NCBI GenBank assembly: GCA_025677815.1
Contig: JAIXMP010000059.1
Span: 62,001 to 126,000, forward strand
From: Phascolomyces articulosus
Taxonomy: Eukaryota; Mucoromycota; Mucoromycetes; Mucorales; Lichtheimiaceae
DNA: 64,000 nucleotides
Direction: 5' to 3'
Shown: positions 29,306-42,500 of the stretch, in pieces
How the letters are laid out: each line of letters opens with the position of its first letter
How positions within the stretch are numbered: the first letter of the stretch is position 1
Made by a program: the position numbers and the translations under genes
Notes under the pieces: model-generated
Seen by the model: the letters and a program-made list of their open reading frames with translations, nothing else
What the model was told of the DNA's origin: nothing
The model's database searches: none

Positions 29306-31307
29306 ACCTCACTTTGTATCAATATAAATGGTTTTATCTCGTCCTCATGCAAACAAGGAAGAGGACTTAGACAAGGTGACCCTTTGTCTCCTCTCTTATT
29401 CAACATTGTACTTGAACCCTTATTGTGCGCAATCAGATCGTCGCCGTCCATTTCTGGTTTCTCCTTTATCACACCTGGAAGCACCACCTTGGATCGTCCC
29501 ACTGACACACCACCACGAGTAAAGGTCATGGAATATGCGGATGATATTTTTGCCTTTCTCACCAAGCCTAGTGAATTACAATTCCTCTTGTCACTTTTTG
29601 ATCTTTATGGCAAGGCATCCAATGCCAAGCTTAACAAGGATAAAACTATTGCTTTATCCCTATCAGATGAATCTCAATTGCTGGCAGCATACCCTTCGTG
29701 AACAAAGTATTCACAATTGGCATGACAAGTTTGATCCAGAGGCAGTGCTTACCTTGGATATCCATTATCAAGTAATACTGCTCAGCTTTCCAATTTCTTG
29801 ATTCCATACGAAAAAAAATCGAGCACCATGCCAATATTTTATCCAGTCGTCGATTGTCAATTGCTGGTCGTGGTTTAGTAGCAAATTCGCTCCTGTTAAG
29901 CCGTCTATGGCATGTTATCCGTGTGCTACCGTTAACTCAAGAATTTTTACTCAAAATTCGGTCCATCATCATCAAGTTCCTGGCTCACAAGTCCTTCCCA
30001 GCTGTTAGCTTTGAAACTTCCACCATACCTCGGAAATTTGGAGGTCTAGGTGTACTGGATCCTGATGCACAACATAAAGCTCTTCAGTTACGATGGATCC
30101 TCCCTTTGCTTAGGATTTTCCCGGTTAACTCAGAATCGTTTATCCATCATATTCCTCATTTTGTTTATCCTTCTTCTCCAATTCAATTGATCCTTCGATT
30201 CCCCTGGTATTCGAGGAAGGAAGGCCCGCGACTCTAACCACAATTGGCTCTTTCAAGACGATCTTACAAGCTGCATCCAAAATTGGTTTAAACACTGCGT
30301 GGATCAATATAACCCCTCTGTTATTCTCGAATTGCCCATTAAGGTGCTATGTCGAAGTTTACCACGTACGTTATCCACTGGTCAAGTCCATCGTTGGAAG
30401 GAGGTGAAGGTCAAACAATACTTTTATTTTAATTTGGCTTTGTCACGGTTTATGCCAATAATACCTGGTCGTTCGTATCGTCAGCCAAACCTGGTGAATA
30501 TATTTTTTAACTTGCTGGATCAAGAATACCAATTAATCACACCAACGCTACGACATCTCTTTAAGCCTATTGATCAAACTGTGAACCGCTCTTTCTGCAA
30601 TCTACCGTTTCATCCACAACAGCTTTTCCATGACACCATCCATTTTAACAACATACCCATATCTGATCTAGACACCAAAATACTACGTCATATACAACAT
30701 ACAGGTTGGGTATCATCTTCACCGTCATTGTTTAACACGGAGACTAATCGAGTTCCTTCAACTGCCTGGAAATATTTTTGGAATACGCCTTTACCTCACC
30801 ACGCTCATAGTGAACTATGGCGTTTCTATAAGAACAAGCTTCCTTGTCGTTCTCGTCTCAACCGCCTAATACCAAATAGTTTTCCTGATCCTATTTGTCC
30901 TTTTTGCCCCCATGATGATACAGATCAACATTTTCTCTGGGAATGCGCATTAAAAAAACAGGTTTGGACTGGTTTGGCAGAAAGGTTCCTTGTAGAACCA
31001 CATCTTCTTTCGAACATTTATCAGTAAATCCACCGTCTAGTCTTGAACTCCAAAACATTACCCATATCTCTTTTCGTACATTTATTGGTTGTGCCATTTT
31101 ATCCATTTGGCAAGCGCATTGGAGGTTCATTTTTGATGAACAAACTTTTTGGCCTAATGGGGTCGTTGCATCCATTATTAGAATCCTCAAACAAATTGAA
31201 GCACAAAACTCTCTTCCGTGTACCCCTTAGTATAGCACCATAATATTTGTAAATTTTGAACCATTCTCGGTTTTAAAATAAAATTTCTTAATACAAAAAA
31301 AAAAAAA
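29306..31307 (+). mobile_element. 5'-truncated LINE, family B, with poly-A tail
   Basis: About 2.0 kb between 13-bp direct repeats, ending in a run of about 13 A. It begins inside the reverse-transcriptase region, so the endonuclease and ORF1 were never copied, which is typical of incomplete target-primed reverse transcription. Its reverse transcriptase and C-terminal zinc-binding region differ clearly from the LINE at 20589-25842, and it uses a poly-A tail, so it is a separate family. Confidence 0.85.
29340..31240 (+). pseudogene. reverse transcriptase fragment with zf-RVT-type C-terminus (LINE family B ORF2)
   Basis: The conserved RT segment reads RGLRQGDPLSPLLFNIVLE from about 29358. The catalytic block MEYADDIFAFL lies near 29527. 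Later segments at 29854-30237 and 30299-31027 hold a thumb-like region (LGVLDPDAQHKALQLRWILP) and a zinc-binding region (WRFYKNKLPCRSRLNRL, CPFCPHDDTDQHFLWEC) of the type found at the C-terminus of L1/Tx1-like and plant LINE proteins. Stops and frame changes near 29700, 30237 and 31027 break it. It is non-functional. Confidence 0.82.
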
Positions 31308-31320: not shown

Positions 31321-33947
31321 CCCGTAATCCTCAACCCGTTTTTAATACGGGAAATTGTTTCTTGAGCAAAAGCAGTATCATGGTGCAAATCATAGTACCA
31401 TCACGAGCGACAGAGGCCATTCTTAGGCATGACTACTCCCCACATACTACAATTAACCTTGGGACTGATCAAAGCAAGTAGAAAAAATAACATCATATTG
31501 GACTATTGCAAAATAACAACAATAAGAGGAGTGAAAAACAAATAAATAAATAAAAAAATAATAATCAACTTACACGAAGCAGAGAAAATGAAATGAGAAC
31601 ACCCAAAAAGCAATGGGGTACTTTATTCCATAACTAAGCTAAAGAATAGGTCAACGTTACGACCAAAAAGATGGCACACGCAAGGTGGCACACTAGTCAA
31701 CAGAACCAACAAACATTGGAATAGTGGCGTGATACGCAATCACGCCTTACACACAACACGAGAAAGGAGCTGGGCTGTGATATCATACACAAAGACAAGA
31801 TATGCAGATGAACTATTGTAAAAGCAGAACAATGAAAGAACATGAACCAAAGCAAGAAGTGACACTTCAGTTTTACTGTACAGAACAAAGGAGAGCATCT
31901 TGAGAAGATTAATAAAAATATAAAAAAAGAACACTAAGTGCAATATGTCTAATAGCTTCATCCATCCATCACACACAAATAAACATGACAGGTCCTTACC
32001 AGATTCATTTTTCTCTTTTCTACTATTAACTGAATATTTTAATGAAGCATATCAAACAAGTTCTCTTTCTCATCTTCTCCATCTTAATCAAAAGAACCAA
32101 CGATAAACGTACCTTTATTGATCTGCACCTGGGTCAAAGAAAAAATCCTATCAATCGAAACCAATTGGAAAAAAGACCAGATGCGTCTACTTTTCCCAAA
32201 CAAATGAAAATAGTGCAACGACATCCACAAGCGTAACATATAAGGAAAAAACCCAGTGGGAAAAATGGCCCTTATACATTGAACTTGCCTGCCGATAATC
32301 CTTCAATACCGTCAAATATTTACAAATAGATACTTCCAAGGATACATTTACAATTATTTATTCTATTCTGCTTTTTCTCCTTAATCCATCGCACCAACAA
32401 AATCTATATATAGATTATATATAAAACAAAACAAAGAGAGAATGATCCAGTGTAGCAAATTGATAATCAAAAACAAAACAGAGTGTGTACATTTAATCCC
32501 CACATCCAAACGAATGATATACAAACCAAGGACCAAAAGACATCAACCATAAGCATCAAGAAAATTCATTGCAGAAATTCCACAACTATATACTTAATAA
32601 TCATTTATTGACCCGTGAATTTGTTGAATACAATGAAAAGCATTTATTAAAAAAAAGGAAGGAAAAAAATACTACAACAAAGGATGTACAAACTTACCCA
32701 AAGCGTGTGCTTTTTATTTGAAGGAGAAGAAACAAGAATCAAGCTGAGTAAATTGATTTTATCATTTATAAGAAGAACTTATAGTGGTCAGATCAACAAA
32801 AAGATCAATCAACAGAAAGTATTGCTTACCAGTAAAAAGCATGTGCTATTACCAACATCACAGTATACAAACAGATCTCCAAAGAGAGAAAAAGAAATAG
32901 TGATCTTGACCATTGGATGAATCATGAATACCTTTAAAATGATTTAATAATATAGAATTGTTTGATCTTGCTTGAATTAATGGTCATATCATTTGGAGAA
33001 AAAAAGAAACATAATATAGTATTTATTGCCACTCCTTCCCTAATAAAACTATCCCTGCCTTTTGTTACGCATCAATAGGGACCACCATCCTATTCTTGCT
33101 TGCCTTGTAATAAACAGAAAGAGGCTTAATGTCGAACATTATATTCTTTATTGACCAGAGGAAACCATCCAAATAGATTTAAGATCAAAAAGTGAAAGAT
33201 TCTCTTTATAGTTCTCAAACTTATAATAAAGAATACCCCTTCCATCATGTATTATTTTGATAACAACAAGTTTCTTTTAATTTATAATATGACTTACGTT
33301 TTACGGTTATGTATAATGGCCTAATGGTTAAAAGTGTGTTTTTTGAAGTAGGAAAAAAAATGGAACGCGTCAACCACAACACGAACCGCGTGTTTACAAA
33401 ATTGGGAGTTGCTTTCAACTTGCATGAAATCTCTTTAAAAAGTAGTAATGGTTATATGATGGAAGTCAGAGTGCGTGGTAAAAGAGTTTGGGTCAATCCT
33501 TTTCTCTTTCTTTCTTTCTTTCAAACCTCAACATGTCAACCTTTAATATCAGCAATATACAATCGATGAAGGTGGTAAACGTCGCTAAACAAGAAAGACG
33601 TTAATCTACATGTCTAAAATAGGCAAAGTATGTTATATTAGCTATGGTAATGGAAGCAACAACCGACTATTAGATTATTCATGGAGTATATCTATTATAT
33701 CTACTTTAATAGGAAAGAGATCCTATCAAAACAGGAGACCTTAGGACGACCAAAAGATTTCTAAATTAGGCTCCACAAACCCCACTGCTCCTTATTTGAA
33801 GCCAAGTCGGAAGTTCATGCCCAGTTCACTCAGTATTGCTGGTTGCCAATTTAATTAATTTTGCTGGTCATTTTTTTTTTCAGTACACATTATATGTCAA
33901 GGGGAAGGCGGAGTGACTATATTAGTGCTACGAAAAAGTCCTTGAAA
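31321..33947. other. gene-poor region, no gene seen
   Basis: About 2.6 kb with only short open frames lacking domains. A tRNA-like A-box word occurs near 33315 but has no B box or cloverleaf. It ends at the 3' side of the TnpB/Fanzor-like relic; a guide RNA, if this element ever had one, would be expected to overlap that end, but I cannot identify one by eye. Confidence 0.5.
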
Positions 33948-36900
33948 TTACATGGATGTTTGACCTGCACCTATACACAAATTAATAAGTATTTGTAGCT
34001 TGATGTTTTTAAGTTATAAAATTCATTATGTAGAAGTATAAAAAATTTACGTACCATGCAAAAAAGTTGATGATGGCGAGACCAAACGATAAATTTGATC
34101 CAGTTCGAAATGACTGGTGGTAGTTGCTGTGGTAGTTGTGGATGCTGATGGGTTGTAGGGCGGGAGAAGTTTCTTGTCGCTTGAAAAAATAGTTGTGACC
34201 ACAGCTAACCCAATACCGGTTGCGCCAACAGCATCTCTGTTTAAAGTAGTATATCCGGCTAATACTGCTGGACAGTTACTGTTGTTGCATGTAAGCGCAC
34301 CATGCGAGTTCTTTTTTTGTTTTTTTTCCATCTTTGAGTATAGTTGCGGGCAGTAGACTGAGTGGTTGGAAACAAAATACGCATATCTGACTTGACATAT
34401 GTTCATTCTGCAAGGCAACTGTTGTTGATGTGCGGTGTGCCTTTCGAAACCTCTTGCCCCCTCTTCGGGGCCTTCCTTTCAGAAAGGTATTGAAACCCAT
34501 CCCTGTAAGACCAATACTATTAATTCACGTGTGTAAGGTTAGCCTTAATCTTGAAATGATATCAAAAAGGATAGATTCAAAGAATTGAACACATTTATCA
34601 ATAGAATAATAAAAAAAGACTTACAGCATCATTACTTTTAATTGCTTTCGATGGTACGGGAGTTTGGCAGCACATGATTTTTTAACATATTCACGTTCCT
34701 TCCGGGCTAGCTTGACATAAATATTATGACTCGCCACGTACTAATGTCGATGTTCGTTCATAGCTGCTGGGCAATAGTAAAATTCACGAAGAACATTTTT
34801 TACAGAAAGTCGTACCTATTATATATATACAAAAAAAGATTGAGCTATCATACTATTTTCCAAAAATATATAACTTTTAGGATGACTACCTTTTGACACC
34901 GCAATAATTCTTCTGGGTCGATGATACCAGTAAAAGAGCATGACTTTAATTGTTCCTCAGCAAGAACAACCTTCTTATTTCTTTTTCGCTATTGAAATAT
35001 TGAAAGAGTACAATACTCAATATATTAATGGTTACTTTACTTTTTACTTTTTATATATCTTCAGTCACCAACCTTTTTACGCTTTTCCCTCCTTCTGGCA
35101 AACTTCCTGGCAAATGGCTCTTCGTGTACTTGTTCGTTTGTTATTGAAAATGGTTTTGGTAATTTCAGATCTTCAACTGAAAACGCTGTCTTCATAAATT
35201 TGATCTCATTATCCAGCATTATCCGTAATTTTTCCAGTTGGTCATTTTTTAAAGCATCATCTGTCAATGATATAAAATCAACTTCATGACTTGAATGTAT
35301 AACCCAGTTACAATGCATTTCCTCAAACTGCTCGTGTTGCTGTTGTAAATCCTGTGATTTGCTTTTTTCGTCAGATACATCATGTTTCATATCAGGCTGT
35401 TGTTTTTCAACAACGTCTTGTTCCGTTTTTCCAGTATCTTGCATATTATCAATAATTTGGAGCTGTCGTTGTTGGTGTTGTCATTGCTTGTTGTACAAAT
35501 CCACATGGAAGCGTATATTGTTGTTCGTTAATGGAACTGTTTGAGATAACACTACATGGCCATAATCTGTTGCTCCATATACACATTTGTTCATATCAAG
35601 TTTAGAAACATCAATATTTGCTGAAATATCTTCATGTTGCATTCTAGTTGGTGTTGGTGTTGTAGGTGGAACAGAAGAGGGCGGATCATTTTTTCCATAA
35701 TGATTAACGGCCTATTGGTAACATAAGGAGCTTAATAAAAAACCCAAAAAAAAAGATTAAACAATACAAGAAAAACAATCAAGATAACCACTTACTTTGT
35801 TCAACTGATATTTCATACTACGAAAGTCCTTGATTTTCCTTTGCGCAAGCTTGAGCAAACTATTCGCTTTCCTCTTCTCTTGGACATCATCTTTTAGTTT
35901 TTTGCTAAGTAGTTGTTTTACTTTGCCCTTGCTTTTCTTCAATTCGTCCTTTGCAGTTTGCCATGCTTTGGTTGCTTGCCCTGCTTGCTTTTTCAATTCA
36001 ATTTGGGTTGTTTGTAGCTCCGTGATTGATCCTTCTACAGATTGCAGATCCTGTTCCAACTGACTTTTAGATTTTCCTGCAAGGTGAGGGAGGATGTTGA
36101 CATAACTGCTCTTCTTGCTGTTACGTTTCTTCTTTTGTCGTTTCTCGTATTCTGATATAATTGGTGTGTGATTGTTTTTGATCGTGCCTAGTAAGGACAC
36201 TGTCTTGTCAGGACGAACCACCATCCGGTTGGCAAAAACCATCTTATGCATATCACACAATTTCTTGACCTTCGTGTGGTCGAAGAAAGACCACCACATA
36301 GCGTCCCCATCTTTGCGAGCAGCAGATGAAGTAATTGGTTTGCCACTTCCAACAGGGGTAACTTGAAATGGACCTTGAGGAATACCATATTCATGTGGCG
36401 TTAATGTTTCATATATGATGGCCGGGTTTATAGCTATGGTATGAATCTTGTGAGGAGGAACATCAGGGGAGATATCTTGAATATAATCATTGTACCCAGC
36501 AGCCATCAAAATCGCATTTCCTAATATGATGAAAGGCAACTGTGTCAATAGACACATGGATTCTGAATCAGGTGTGTATGATAGCAATTGATTTGTTATA
36601 AGCTTGATTGTCTCTACTTCATTTGCTTTGAGTGATTTGTTATGGCTTGTTTTTAGGATTTGTTCATCGGTTAAATTGCCAGCACGATCAATTTTTTTGC
36701 TTTTTAATAGTGCCTTGATCACACCTATAAACATTTCAGATAATCTTTAGATTCTATAACTTAAGGAACATTTTCATCAAATAGAATGATTTCATTTAAG
36801 TATTGTATTACCTTCCAGTGCTCGAATACGTCCTGTACTTGTATCCTTTGGTTGTTGTTGCTGCTTATCAGTCGCTTTTTCGACCTTTTTACTTCATCAT

Positions 36901-38604
36901 CTTTCTCTCCTTCTGTTTCTTCCGCTTCATCTGCCTCTTTTTCCCATTTTTCGATTATATCACCGACACCAAGAGTTTTTGCGTCTTGAACAGCAGACTA
37001 TATTGATATAGGTACAAGTACAATAAATAAGTATTTTTTTACGTCGATAATAAAACTGCACTAACTATGAATTACCTTAGGTATTTCCGGTGTCATGCTC
37101 CTCTCTTTGTCATTGGGATATATATTGGATTCATCTCTCTGAAGAGTTGTTAGTAAGTCATCTAAATCATTTAAAAGTAATCAATATGGGCAATACCTGG
37201 TCTGGATTCTTCATCAAAGATTCCAATTTATGTATACGTTTTTCACACGAGTGTATCCGTCTGTGGTACTTTTCTTTGTTGCTTTCGTCGGATTGAGTTT
37301 TTTTCTGATGCCTTTTAATTTGATGACGTTCATGCTGGATCTTTGACTTGATTTGCTTTCGAGATAGAGTTTTGGATGGTTGGACCATGTCATCAGATTG
37401 TTGCGTCTCATTGATGTCTAGCATTTTCTTTGCCACGGCCTTCATTGCTTTCTTTACACGTTCCACATATATAGCTTCACGTGTTGGGGCGAGATGAAGT
37501 CGTAAAAGAACGCGAATAACTTTTCTTTCTACACGCTTATAGATTGCTGCTCCTTCCCACATGTTTTTGAAGCTTGTACTAAACTCCTTGATGCCAGATG
37601 CTATAGTAGTACTTATGCCTTGCGGTATGGAGGGAAGGTTGCAGTTTTTGAACGTTAAATCATACCAAAAAGGGTGATTCGGGTCGTTTGTGCTGTTCTT
37701 TTTATCCCCGAGATGATATGATTGTATGTGCTGGAGGTGGTTGTCATAAAACAGACTTTGTAGATCACTGACACCAGTCTTTGATTTGTATACTTTTTCA
37801 AGTTTCTCTTTCAATGAAATGTTCGATTTTGCAATCATAACCTTCCCTTTTTCATCCATAGGTCTTTTATCTCGTATGGTAAAAGACGCTGGGAATATTT
37901 TTAACATTTGGAAGCCAGATTGTTCTATTTTTAATTGAGCATTGTCATCCTTGATAGTGATTTGATGCTGAGCAACTTGCATAAGGTTATTCTCACCAAA
38001 ACGCTGATGTTTGAGACAGCTGTTGTGGTATGAGCTGCAGCTTGACTGATCGCTTTTGTACATGTTCATGAGACACGTCTTCCCGTAAAATGCTGTTGAT
38101 CCCAATGATTGAGCTTGTGCGTTTGTTTTTATCATCAATCTTGTCTTCGTCGTTGTTGTCATTTTTAGAGGATTCTGTTGCTGTCCCTGTTGTTGATTTG
38201 GTTGTAGAAGCATTATCTTTAAATTCATTGTATAGTTTTTCATAATAATTTTTTTTGATCATCTGCCAGGTGCTTTTAGTCGTCCTCTCTAAAGTCTTGT
38301 TGATTTGTCTGGTGGTTCGATCTATTCCATGTCGTTGTTTGGTTAATTGTGCTACCATTTCCATTGTACCTTTAGGACAATTAATTTTCTTTTCCAGAAA
38401 AATAGCAAACTCGTCCTTGGTGTATTTTGATGCATTTTCATGGACGATCTCCTTAAGCTTTTGTTGTAATACTTCATTTAGTAATTTGGTAATTGTTTCT
38501 TTGTCAGCCTTTGATGTTTTTGTGAATTTCCTTTTTCCTGTCTCCAAAGATCCCTCTTCAATCAGGGTTGCAGCTTGCTGTGGTGTTGCTGTTGAAGTCG
38601 ACAT
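33948..38604 (-). pseudogene. decayed TnpB/Fanzor-like RuvC nuclease gene
   Basis: Exons inferred on the minus strand: from 38604 to 37197 (with an internal frame slip near 38.05 kb), 37138-37076, 36997-36812, 36724-35796, 35711-35073, 34988-34890, 34815-34625, 34502-34055 and 33970-33948. The N-terminal part is Thr/Lys-rich. A middle part includes WWSFFDHTKVKKLCDMH, a long coiled coil (about 36060-35830) and RKIKDFRSMKYQLNK. Next comes a RuvC-I-like strand, YGATDYGHVVLSQTVPL (Asp codon 35565-35567). The C-terminal exon has a RuvC-II-like ALQNEHMSS (Glu codon 34402-34404), a zinc ribbon with C-V-F-C and C-N-N-S-N-C, and a RuvC-III-like LNRDAVGATGIG (Asp codon 34233-34235). This D...E...zinc ribbon...D order is the hallmark of TnpB and eukaryotic Fanzor RNA-guided nucleases. 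Lesions: TGA at 35481-35483, TAG at 34741-34743, and frame slips near 36880, 34500-34630 and the A-runs at 34311-34329. Family assignment is by motif only. Confidence 0.6.
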
Positions 38605-39572
38605 TTGGATTCATATTACAATGTGAGTGATGTGAGGAAACAAAAAAAAAGTTTAGAAGAAAAAGCGTGTCGCGTGTTTTCGCGTTTTACCCCACAATTT
38701 AAAAAATAATATTCCGAAATTTATAAACAATTGCTCCTTTTGATGAGAAGTATTATTTAGGAGTTAATAGTTTTAATAAATATATTCACACCTACAGGAT
38801 CATTACTTACAATGAAATAGGCTGTATATAATAATGTACACATTCACTGTGATGTTTAGTAGCTGCAATGGATCGATGTGAATATGTAAATTATTTAAAT
38901 ATTAATTGGATGTAAAGCAGGTTGTTATTCATCCCCGTCGCACCTGGATAAGTTATAGAAATTTAAAATTCATCAAATGTAACAGGAAATGAGTACATAC
39001 ATCTATTGTAGCAATAAGGAAATTGTAATGACGAGTTTTATTCTATTATATATTCAGTCAAGGTTCTCCTATTTTGGATGAACATTGGTATTTAAGCATT
39101 TTGATACCATATATAAAGCAACAACACCTCTCTTCTCTTCTTTTCTCGTCATATAAAATTTTCGTCCTATTGATCTAGTTTCGCGCTGATTTCGTCTTTA
39201 TCATAACTCGAGTATGTGAAGGAACAAGAAGTCTATTTGGATTTAGGATAATTTATAGTTTATTAATGGGAATAATATCCATATAGTTATTTAATTCGCC
39301 TTATTGTTTTGTATCGCTCGTTATCAGCCTTTATCTTTTATTGTCATCGTTGTATCTCTGCTGTTGCAGTCGCTTTATCTCTGTCCTCTTATTATATTTG
39401 GGTATGGATCAGCCGTTTATTTATTCTGTAGTTATTAATTTAGTGTGACAGTCTAACTGTACTATCACTAAAATAATGTAATTAAACTTTTGATTGGGCT
39501 CACTATATCAAAATATTATTGGACGAGAAAACACATTTTTTTTCACCTTTTCTGCTTTAACTAAATACTTCA
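38605..39572. other. intergenic region between divergent genes
   Basis: About 970 bp separating the start of the nuclease relic (minus) from the importin gene (plus). It should contain the importin promoter. No open frame of note. A short stretch with several CGCG words lies near 38665-38690. Confidence 0.5.
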
Positions 39573-42500
39573 ATGGAAGTGGATCAAGCTCAAAAGGTAA
39601 TTTTAACCAACGTTTTCTCTTTTTAAATCTTTTATGCTTTCTGTTTATGAAAAAAAAGTGGGTTATTTTGGTTACATCAAGAAATTTTAGTTGATTGAAG
39701 GGCTTTACAGCGCAAGTGGCCCAGGTATAGCGAAAGAAATCCAAGAGCAGCTATTGGCCATTCAACGACAACCTCAAGCATGGCAAATCGCGTCTCAATT
39801 GCTTTCCATTGAGGTAAAATTCCTTTTTTTTTTCCACATAAAGTAGAAGCTGCTTTTTTTTTTATCTCCTAGGAAAAAGTATATAAGCTCACATTGCAAA
39901 GTAGTCAGATCAATGTCGGTTCTTTGGTGCACACACGTTCCAAGTAAAAATAGCACGCGATTGGTATGCTCCACCTATATATATATAAAATCAATGGAAT
40001 GTGGATAAATAATATAAGGTTATTTTAATTAGGAACACATTCCCAGAAGAACGTATTGAATGGCTTCGTGAAGAATTATTGTCATGGATCGTTCGATCGT
40101 CCACAGGACCTCTTTTTATCACAACAAAACTTTGTCTTGCTGTAAGGATATATATGAACATAGAGGATTCTTCATTGATCCATAGATAAAGATAATGGGT
40201 GAGAAAATAATACTTATATATTATTCGTTTATAGCTTATTACATATGCATTTCATACCATTCCCCAACACTGGAAGAATTTTGTTGCTGCATCTGTCCAT
40301 ACAATGCAAAATGGTGCACAGACCCTTGGTATTCAGCCGAGCAATATCAGCATGACGATCTTGGAGTTTTTAACATTAGTTCCAGAGGAAGTGTCTAACA
40401 CAGAGATCATTGGGGGAAAGAGGTATTTATAATATTTAGGATAATTTCAATGGATTGCATTTCCACTGAAATAGACTGACTTTTTTGTTGGATGATTTCA
40501 GAGCACAAGTGCTACAAGAATTAAAGGATGGTATACCATTGGTGCTATCCACATTATCTTCATTTCTCATAACGACGAGTAGCGATACGGATGTGGATGT
40601 CATCGTGCAGCAAAAGGCACTTGGCTGTTTACAGAGTTGGATTCAATATGGTGTTGATTTTGAGTAAGTGGATATTTGATTACCTAAATGAATTAATTTA
40701 TTTGTTCTTACTTTGTTTTGATTTGTCTAATCCATCCTATTGCTTTGCTTATCATTGATGAACAAAAAAAAAAGAGAAGTTTACCTTCTTATTCGACAAT
40801 CAATGCTATTTCTCGGCAACGAACAATTATTTCGAAATGCGGCGGATGTTCTCTTGGAAACAATGCAACAATCATCCTATGCCAAATACAATACGTTACG
40901 TAACGATTTGCTCGAATGTTTTTCATCTGACGAAATGAGATTGAAACTTACAAATTGTATTGCAGGTATTTAGTTTATATACTGTATGAAACAGTCATAA
41001 AAAAAAAGGTGGTGTTAAACTCTCTCTGAATTTTATATATACAAAAATATAGAAGAAGATGATGAAGTGGGAATTCTACTAGCTAAATTGCTTACTGGAT
41101 TTGGAGAAACCTTTACCGAGTATATCTCTGACCATCTTGCTGCTCCCAGCATGATTGCATTATTGAATATGATTATGCAATTGACCGATTTTCCTGGGTA
41201 TTTTCCTACAGATCAAGAAGTAAGTGAGATTCCACTTAATTTCTGGTATGTACTACAAGAGACATTGTTTGATGATGGGATTATTCCTATCCGACAACAA
41301 GTTTCCATCGTTACCGATGCAGATGATGATGTGGTAGTAGATCGAGCAACAACACATTCTGAACATATTGCTTGGATACGCCAATGTGGAGAAACGGCGA
41401 TGGCTGTTTATCGTGAGCTCGTTAGTGTAATGAAGCGAAAAGCTGCATTTCCAGAAGATTCGATTTGGCAATCATGGCCCAAAGGTGCGTAATTCTTCAT
41501 TTATACACAATGAAAAAGCAATGGGATGATAAAGTAATCAATAACTTTTCTTTAAAACAATTTATGGATACAGATATTAAAGAGAAGTTTAGACGCTGTC
41601 GTCGAGATTTGGGTGATACAATGATTAATCCATATTATGTATTGCGAAATGAATTATTGGATATTTTACTCAATCATACATTTACTATATTGAATCAGTT
41701 AAACAGCTCACGGTCCCAGCTATTGACGGTAAATATTTTTAAAACGAAGCATGAGTAGAAAACAAAGGCGGAGCCCTATTTTAGCACCAGGCTTGATTTA
41801 CAAAATCTCTATTTTATTCTTTCAGGACCTTGAAGCAACCATGTTTTGTTTAAAAAGTATTTGTGAAGAAATACCACCCGATGAAAATACATATATTCGA
41901 GAATTTTTTGGACCCAAAGTACTTGGACGATTACCTACGAATGGGGATTTTCGATTACAAAATACAACTTTATTGTTAATGGGTTCATTAGCTGAATGGC
42001 TAAAATTACATCCAGAGTTCCTTCCACCTGTGATGAATTACATTGTTCCGTGCCTTAGCGTTCCTCGATTATCCATGTCTGCAGCTAGCGCATTTTCAGA
42101 TATATGTGATACATGTAGAGAATCGTTGACAGATGAATTGGAAAGTCTTATGCATGTATACAATGCTATGGCCAATTCAATGATTGAGGTGAGTGAATAT
42201 TTTATCTTGGATCATGGGGATTTAAATTAAATTAATACTGATAATAAATTATCTTATAATATAGTCCAACATTATGCAAAAAGTGGTAGAATCTGTTGCA
42301 GATGTTATCCAAGTATTATCTCCAGAAAGAGCCATTGCTCCACTTATGGTAAGAAAAAACAGTAGAATGAGGAGGGAGGAAAGGTAATATACGAAACCAA
42401 GAGAAACTGAACAGGCAGTTTACTTTATTAGGCATTAGCCGGTGATATTCTTCAAGGCGTCGGAAAAGCACTCAACGCTATTGAGGATGCATCTATAGAC

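Follow-up and report, generated by a model that had tools for sequence, protein, structure and literature searches.

What kind of protein was once encoded by the broken gene on the minus strand of this 64,000-nucleotide stretch of Phascolomyces articulosus DNA (hereafter the window), and how did the gene come to lie there? A sequence-only reading had described the interval 33948-38604 as the relic of a TnpB/Fanzor-like RNA-guided nuclease. The window locus is part of contig C66, in a surrounding genome of 47.4 Mb. It is very probably the decayed copy of a mobile DNA element, from a fungus resembling the Mucorales, with a gene for a divergent Fanzor1-like RuvC nuclease. Copy number, a common 3' end, insertion into A-tracts, the gene model, the order of the motifs, homology to Fanzor1 and purifying selection are all read from the sequence. 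Beyond what had been described before, the gene sits within a multi-copy mobile element (33882-39532), and its RuvC-I motif reads DYG.

The element is found in at least 12 dispersed copies, which encompass the window, C22, two on C21 (C21a and C21b), C45:1.607 Mb, C23:2.080 Mb, C13:551 kb, C2 and C32, together with three 5'-truncated copies at C13:711 kb, C35 and C61. The window copy is 94.5% identical to C22, the two C21 copies are 95.4% and 93.5% identical to it, and C45 is 94.8% identical. Of the intact relative that had been anticipated elsewhere in the genome, the C22 copy is a candidate that reads open: hand splicing at GT-AG sites gives nine exons, eight introns of 58-108 bp and an open protein of 1342 residues, with exon 1 inside a single 481-residue open frame. 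This splice model was made by eye, and its outside support is a protein of Circinella minor. In the window, the minus strand from 38604 to 33948 displays exon-like open stretches, the same ones that are open in C22, and the two limits coincide exactly with the ATG of the first exon and the stop of the last. All eight introns of the window copy, which had been called intron-rich, retain their GT-AG borders. The term relic is apt: stops interrupt the reading in exons 5 and 7, the frame is broken in exons 1, 3 and 8, and the 5' terminus is about 17-21 bp shorter than that of C22. A comparison of five long copies assigns 133 private substitutions to the window copy, which is dead; no such protein can be made from it. 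Hypermutation of the repeat-induced point mutation type was rejected because both directions of change are roughly equal, with C-to-T plus G-to-A changes numbering 19-51 per copy and the reverse changes 13-41. The introns of the long copies diverge by around 3-4%, below the synonymous sites (dS about 0.1), and C-to-T hypermutation is not the cause.

Coding constraint is visible in the ratio of nonsynonymous to synonymous substitution rates (dN/dS). With gapped codons and stop codons omitted, the values against C22 are 0.41, 0.41, 0.36, 0.28, 0.53, 0.38, 0.14, 0.32, 0.29, 0.45 and 0.33. All 11 lie below 1, and the source copies seem to have kept the protein while the family spread.

A search of 5.8 billion proteins returned a single match among 7990 scored candidates, the Circinella minor protein INT45_013529 (P0002), whose record says 'hypothetical protein'. 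It is 1280 residues long, is 56% identical over all 783 residues searched and aligns colinearly with the C22 protein from the first Met. It is a full-length member of the same family, although about 60 residues shorter, and its C-terminus extends past the C22 end. As the only protein relative found, and one from the Mucorales, it agrees with the Mucoromycota origin proposed earlier. The four motifs named in the sequence-only reading (RuvC-I, RuvC-II, zinc ribbon and RuvC-III) are present on the minus strand in the order given. In C22 they comprise the RuvC-I Asp 925, an alternative RuvC-II Glu at 1224, cysteines 1231, 1234, 1262 and 1267, and the Asp of an RD pair at 1279-1280; the three acidic residues and four cysteines are all conserved in the Circinella protein, where the motifs, DYG included, are identical in kind. 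As to the long coiled coil that had also been described, a K/E/Q-rich stretch is present in exon 4, and its coiled-coil character was judged by eye.

In the portion of PMC10711439 consulted, the Fanzor fingerprint is given as a near-exclusive DPG in RuvC-I plus a RuvC-II Glu six residues before the zinc finger. The alternative Glu, E1224 in C22 and E1152 in P0002, stands seven positions ahead of the first Cys, which is the Fanzor placement. In C22 it is the sole acidic residue among the 66 that precede the first Cys; P0002 also has a D at -59 and an E at -51, the latter without a counterpart in C22, from which the canonical TnpB Glu (some 50 residues ahead of the zinc finger) is absent. The excerpted text of PMC3627910 provides a longer Fanzor/TnpB motif, D-X(125,275)-[TS][TS]-X-X-C4-X(5,50)-RD. 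All parts of this Bao and Jurka motif occur in order, with a last spacing of 11, and the bare pattern also matches from a different Asp; the spacing from the RuvC-I Asp to the [TS][TS] pair is 301 in C22 and 315 in P0002, above the 125-275 of the motif. When the first spacing is relaxed to 350, the long motif appears in 0 of 3000 shuffled versions of the C22 protein. That the motifs were assembled by chance from unrelated exons, an idea to which their individual shortness and the broken state of the window copy lend something, has next to no probability: the sister copies share exons and introns, the Circinella protein is colinear, dN/dS is below 1 and no shuffle reproduces the arrangement, so that we count it as refuted.

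Homology to Fanzor was reached by a less direct route. Direct queries of Pfam, NCBIfam, PADLOC and PDB, whether by individual exons, by the spliced protein or by its Circinella relative, gave nothing usable, and the link is established only via bridging pieces of the same genome. The bridge consists of three Fanzor pieces (C33, L056 and L059), two of which match PF07282 at expectation values (E) of up to 1. That family has four matches in the genome, three of them above the cut-off, and the fourth, on C33, reads GIDPG, NEFRSSKTC and NRDDVGA. The C33 gene (L042) thus has the canonical GIDPG, its own reading joining pieces over uncertain boundaries, and it resembles the C22 protein in colinear N-terminal, middle and RuvC-II/III stretches, with blastp values of 1e-8, 2e-7 and 6e-4 in a database of one. 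As a query against the whole genome, its Fanzor-type exon finds 35 stretches, several from one locus and five in this element, and reaches the exon 8 region of C22 (4.0e-5), C45 (5.3e-5), C21 (7.6e-5 and 0.0013) and C13 (3.9e-4). With hhalign, E is 3.4e-8 for the C33 exon and 3.8e-13 once L056 and L059 are added.

The bridge profile alone reaches SpuFz1 in the PDB at 0.0051. A joint RuvC-II/III profile of two family and three bridging sequences ranks SpuFz1 (1.2e-5), PpFz1 (0.0078) and GtFz1 (0.18, not significant alone) first among 177,635 PDB sequences, and the next entries are two Cas12f chains at 1.5; because the profile mixes family and bridge sequences, these values belong to the group. 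The proposal of a Fanzor-like protein is upheld on this evidence, and no profile search assigned the protein to an unrelated transposase. According to the sections of PMC10432273 and PMC11423790 consulted, the three solved Fanzor1 proteins (8gkh, 9cf0 and 9cer) have in common with it the alternative Glu, the [TS]S pair, the C4 ribbon and the RD. Most Fanzor1 proteins are 600-700 residues long in the latter source, in contrast to the C22 protein, which is about twice the usual length, has DYG instead of DPG, and places some 300 residues between the RuvC-I Asp and the SS pair. Further relatives were few: a protein search with the C33 Fanzor returned nothing and one with the Circinella RuvC region only itself, viral and prokaryotic contigs scanned with two short peptide patterns each held no relative, and the searched literature, whose coverage of subscription journals is thin, contained no paper on this Fanzor-like family. 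The genome harbors other Fanzor-type stretches of several lineages, some stop-free in the match, for instance at C31:255067, C89:1419832, C100:1133400, C29:371622 and C27:137502.

The borders of the element show where it inserts. Blastn limits against the other copies lie at about 33875-39532, and end alignments place the 3' end at 33882, an end common to 10 copies. The terminal 22 bases are GGCGGGCATACGATGGTTAGGG, and the reverse complement of the opposite end is GGTACACATAATATGTCTAGGG; these agree at 14 of 22 positions, a likeness matched by 87 of 200,000 random internal pairs. Exact duplications were read at the borders of six copies, covering both sides, and measure 9 bp in C22, C13 and the window (one G and eight A), 8 bp in C45, 7 bp in C2 and 6 bp in C21a, the shorter ones being weakened by the A-runs. 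GAAAAA occurs in all seven 5' flanks read, and (G)AAA starts each of ten 3' flanks, against a frequency of GAAAAA of 0.0016 per position in the fetched loci. Insertion is into GAAAAA tracts and leaves short duplications of the target. Only one gene, the Fanzor-like one, is recognised in it. Two copies have been rearranged: at L031 (C21:538214-538513) one Fanzor copy has, in place of its 5' end, other sequence with an open frame in the opposite direction, and a MULE domain lies about 1.2 kb off; at L043 (5293-6000) a 5'-truncated copy is fused to another open frame that continues in frame into exon 5, a possible chimeric frame.

How such an element moves is a separate matter. No transposase was recognised inside it, the exons searched matching no MuDR or other Pfam transposase, and the genome as a whole contains 29 MULE-domain matches. 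As far as the excerpts of PMC3627910 go, the Fanzor1 elements of Rhizopus, Phycomyces and Mucor are MuDr-type, with 9-bp duplications and no transposase, whereas Chlamydomonas has 5'-truncated Helitron2-type Fanzor1 families. Our element, likened to the former by description only, shares with these Mucorales elements the Fanzor-type gene, the lack of an internal transposase and the 9-bp duplications (two or three copies here), and differs in its weakly inverted and 5'-variable ends. The protein might itself be the transposase of the element, an RNase-H-fold enzyme with a zinc ribbon and not a guide-RNA nuclease, as its position as the only recognised gene between target duplications and its doubled length could suggest. 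This is very unlikely, since neither the exons nor the Circinella protein match any Pfam transposase family, homology to Fanzor1 covers the RuvC-II/zinc/RuvC-III unit, and transposase-less Fanzor1 elements are described for Mucorales in the same source.

The element shows features of both MuDr-type and Helitron2-type families. A one-ended process starting at the 3' end, as in Chlamydomonas, in place of MuDr-like cut-and-paste, is a real possibility, if short of an even one. Ten of the 12 copies have the 3' end and four the full 5' terminus, the copies read insert in a single orientation relative to the A-tract, and three copies (C13, C2 and the window) have a shortened 5' end directly beside the duplication, with 18, 8 and 9 bases between duplication and fixed anchor, respectively, versus 26 in C22 and C45. 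Those three shortened ends strengthen a one-ended process and weaken the MuDr-like reading; however, the three strongly 5'-truncated copies lack a duplication at the 5' junction (by eye), and the weakly inverted ends and 9-bp duplications are as in MuDr-type elements. Retrotransposition of a spliced mRNA was considered in view of the A-runs next to the ends and the three 5'-truncated copies; it was rejected, as every copy that spans the intron positions still has the introns.

A module of about 60 bp at the 5' end of the element (near GGTTAGGGTTTTCTCGTCCAATGATATTTTGATATAGTGGAGCCAATG, with two CCAAT boxes) is found 20 times in the genome, six times within Fanzor copies; most of the other sequences read that share it have no recognised gene. 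Among the seven other places read (L046-L049, L051, L054 and L055), a matching 3' end follows in two, L046 at 2.5 kb and L051 at about 1.8 kb, and related elements without an intact Fanzor gene therefore exist. At L049 a DUF6729 transposase-like gene follows the 5' module. It was weighed as a possible autonomous partner of the element, but is a single decayed copy with no matching 3' end; the border of one other DUF6729 pair was read, and has a different end.

Old copies differ from C22 less at the 3' end than at third codon positions. From intron 8 to the end, three of them (C35, C61 and C13:551 kb) differ from C22 at 10/165, 20/175 and 17/160 sites (6-11%), compared with 54/157, 77/246 and 117/528 third codon positions (22-34%), with p values of 6e-11, 8e-7 and 6e-4. 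The contrast with intron 7 is weaker (p = 0.0013, 0.16 and 0.033 in the same copies), and the old C2 copy, outside that test, differs by 8.8-17.4% by segment at the 3' end and by 18.5% at third positions. The part of PMC10432273 consulted locates the omega RNA at the 3' end of the element, and the last 175 or so non-coding bases here are a candidate guide-RNA locus. Transposon-end function could also explain the conservation. RNAalifold draws a small hairpin, CCATG-TAATTT-CATGG, among other stems, and folding z-scores range from +0.26 to -2.35 over six stretches in five copies. The search for a conserved non-coding RNA that had been suggested at this boundary thus gave strong conservation of sequence; an Rfam match was found neither in the C22 locus nor in the window, and covariation lent no support.

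Several observations weigh against a Fanzor1-like nuclease carried by a mobile element. RuvC-I is DYG in the window, C22, C21a, C21b, C45 and Circinella, and so departs from the DPG of Fanzors. PF07282 reaches an E of 0.03, which falls short of its cut-off, and does not match the Circinella protein; PDB searches with one or two sequences returned no Fanzor; and hhalign against the Fanzor-type exon of the C23 gene found nothing (probability 0.1%). The candidate guide RNA has no covariation support, as two of 28 pairs changed on both sides and several are broken. The 5' ends vary over their first 8-18 bases beside the duplications, and no transposase turned up whose two ends match those of the element. 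Because of the DYG we class the protein as a divergent variant, Fanzor1-like but short of plain Fanzor membership, and one that, to judge from its sequence, most likely works like Fanzor. The replacement of the near-exclusive proline by tyrosine, along with large N-terminal and Gln-rich additions, might instead mean that nuclease function has been lost and that the protein has become an RNA-guided DNA binder or regulator. We think this unlikely: C22 and Circinella agree in all three acidic residues and all four cysteines, the available text of PMC10711439 gives D-hydrophobic-G as the usual form in TnpB, and the gene sits in dispersed repeats.

As a nuclease of the Fanzor1 kind, the protein would bind an RNA from the conserved 3' end running into the flank, and would check a short motif beside the target, perhaps the GAAAAA tract of insertion. 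It would then cut the empty donor site; such cutting would help the element to persist or spread, while another enzyme moves it. A bolder version, which we offer tentatively and consider doubtful, is that the very large Fanzor nucleases seen so far here and in Circinella minor form a lineage of their own, which has exchanged DPG for DYG and uses the GAAAAA tract of its transposon as recognition motif. The preference for an insertion site and the RNA-guided recutting of the vacated donor site would then be locked together.

Table 1. Coordinates, within the window, of the element, its Fanzor-like gene and the motifs
Feature	Position	Strand	Basis
Whole element, about 5.7 kb	33882..39532	minus (gene strand)	blastn limits against copies and end alignments
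3' flanking A-tract (gene strand GAAAAAAAAAATG), likely one side of target duplication	33869..33881		
5' flanking A-tract (gene strand GAAAAAAAATG), opposite side; A-run length differs	39534..39544		
Fanzor-like gene, broken, 9 exons	33948..38604	minus	C22 splice model transferred by alignment
Exon 1, N-terminal region, frame break	37197..38604	minus	
Exon 2	37076..37138	minus	
Exon 3, net -37 bases against C22 (frame break)	36812..36997	minus	
Exon 4, helical, K/E/Q-rich, coiled-coil-like (by eye)	35796..36724	minus	
Exon 5, RuvC-I and one in-frame stop	35073..35711	minus	
RuvC-I YGATDYGHVVL, Asp codon 35565-35567	35547..35579	minus	sequence; kept in Circinella
Exon 6	34890..34988	minus	
Exon 7, one in-frame stop	34625..34815	minus	
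Exon 8, RuvC-II, zinc ribbon and RuvC-III, internal frame break	34055..34516	minus	
RuvC-II alternative Glu (codon 34402-34404), SS and first CxxC, QNEHMSSQICVFC	34372..34410	minus	
Zinc ribbon, second Cys pair CNNSNC	34272..34289	minus	
RuvC-III NRDAVGATG, Asp codon 34233-34235	34215..34241	minus	
Exon 9, final codons and stop	33948..33970	minus	
Conserved terminal stretch (intron 8, exon 9, 3' end), candidate omega RNA locus and transposon end	33882..34054	minus	divergence table, Fisher tests

The element sits close upstream of a Transportin-3/Importin-13 gene, which seems to start about 40 bp past the 5' end of the element, from 39573 onward on the plus strand (domains at 41022-42227, ATG by eye). 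On the other side, a zf-RVT domain (PF13966, 4e-9), of a type found with reverse transcriptases, lies at 30191-31024.

A family that keeps the alternative Glu but not the DPG, with the triad otherwise kept and its coding sequence under constraint, means that fingerprint searches can miss real relatives. A genome so rich in Fanzor-type stretches is a natural place to study the joint evolution of these nucleases and their transposons. Should the open copy be functional, its product would be a eukaryotic RNA-guided nuclease, perhaps one with an A-tract target rule.

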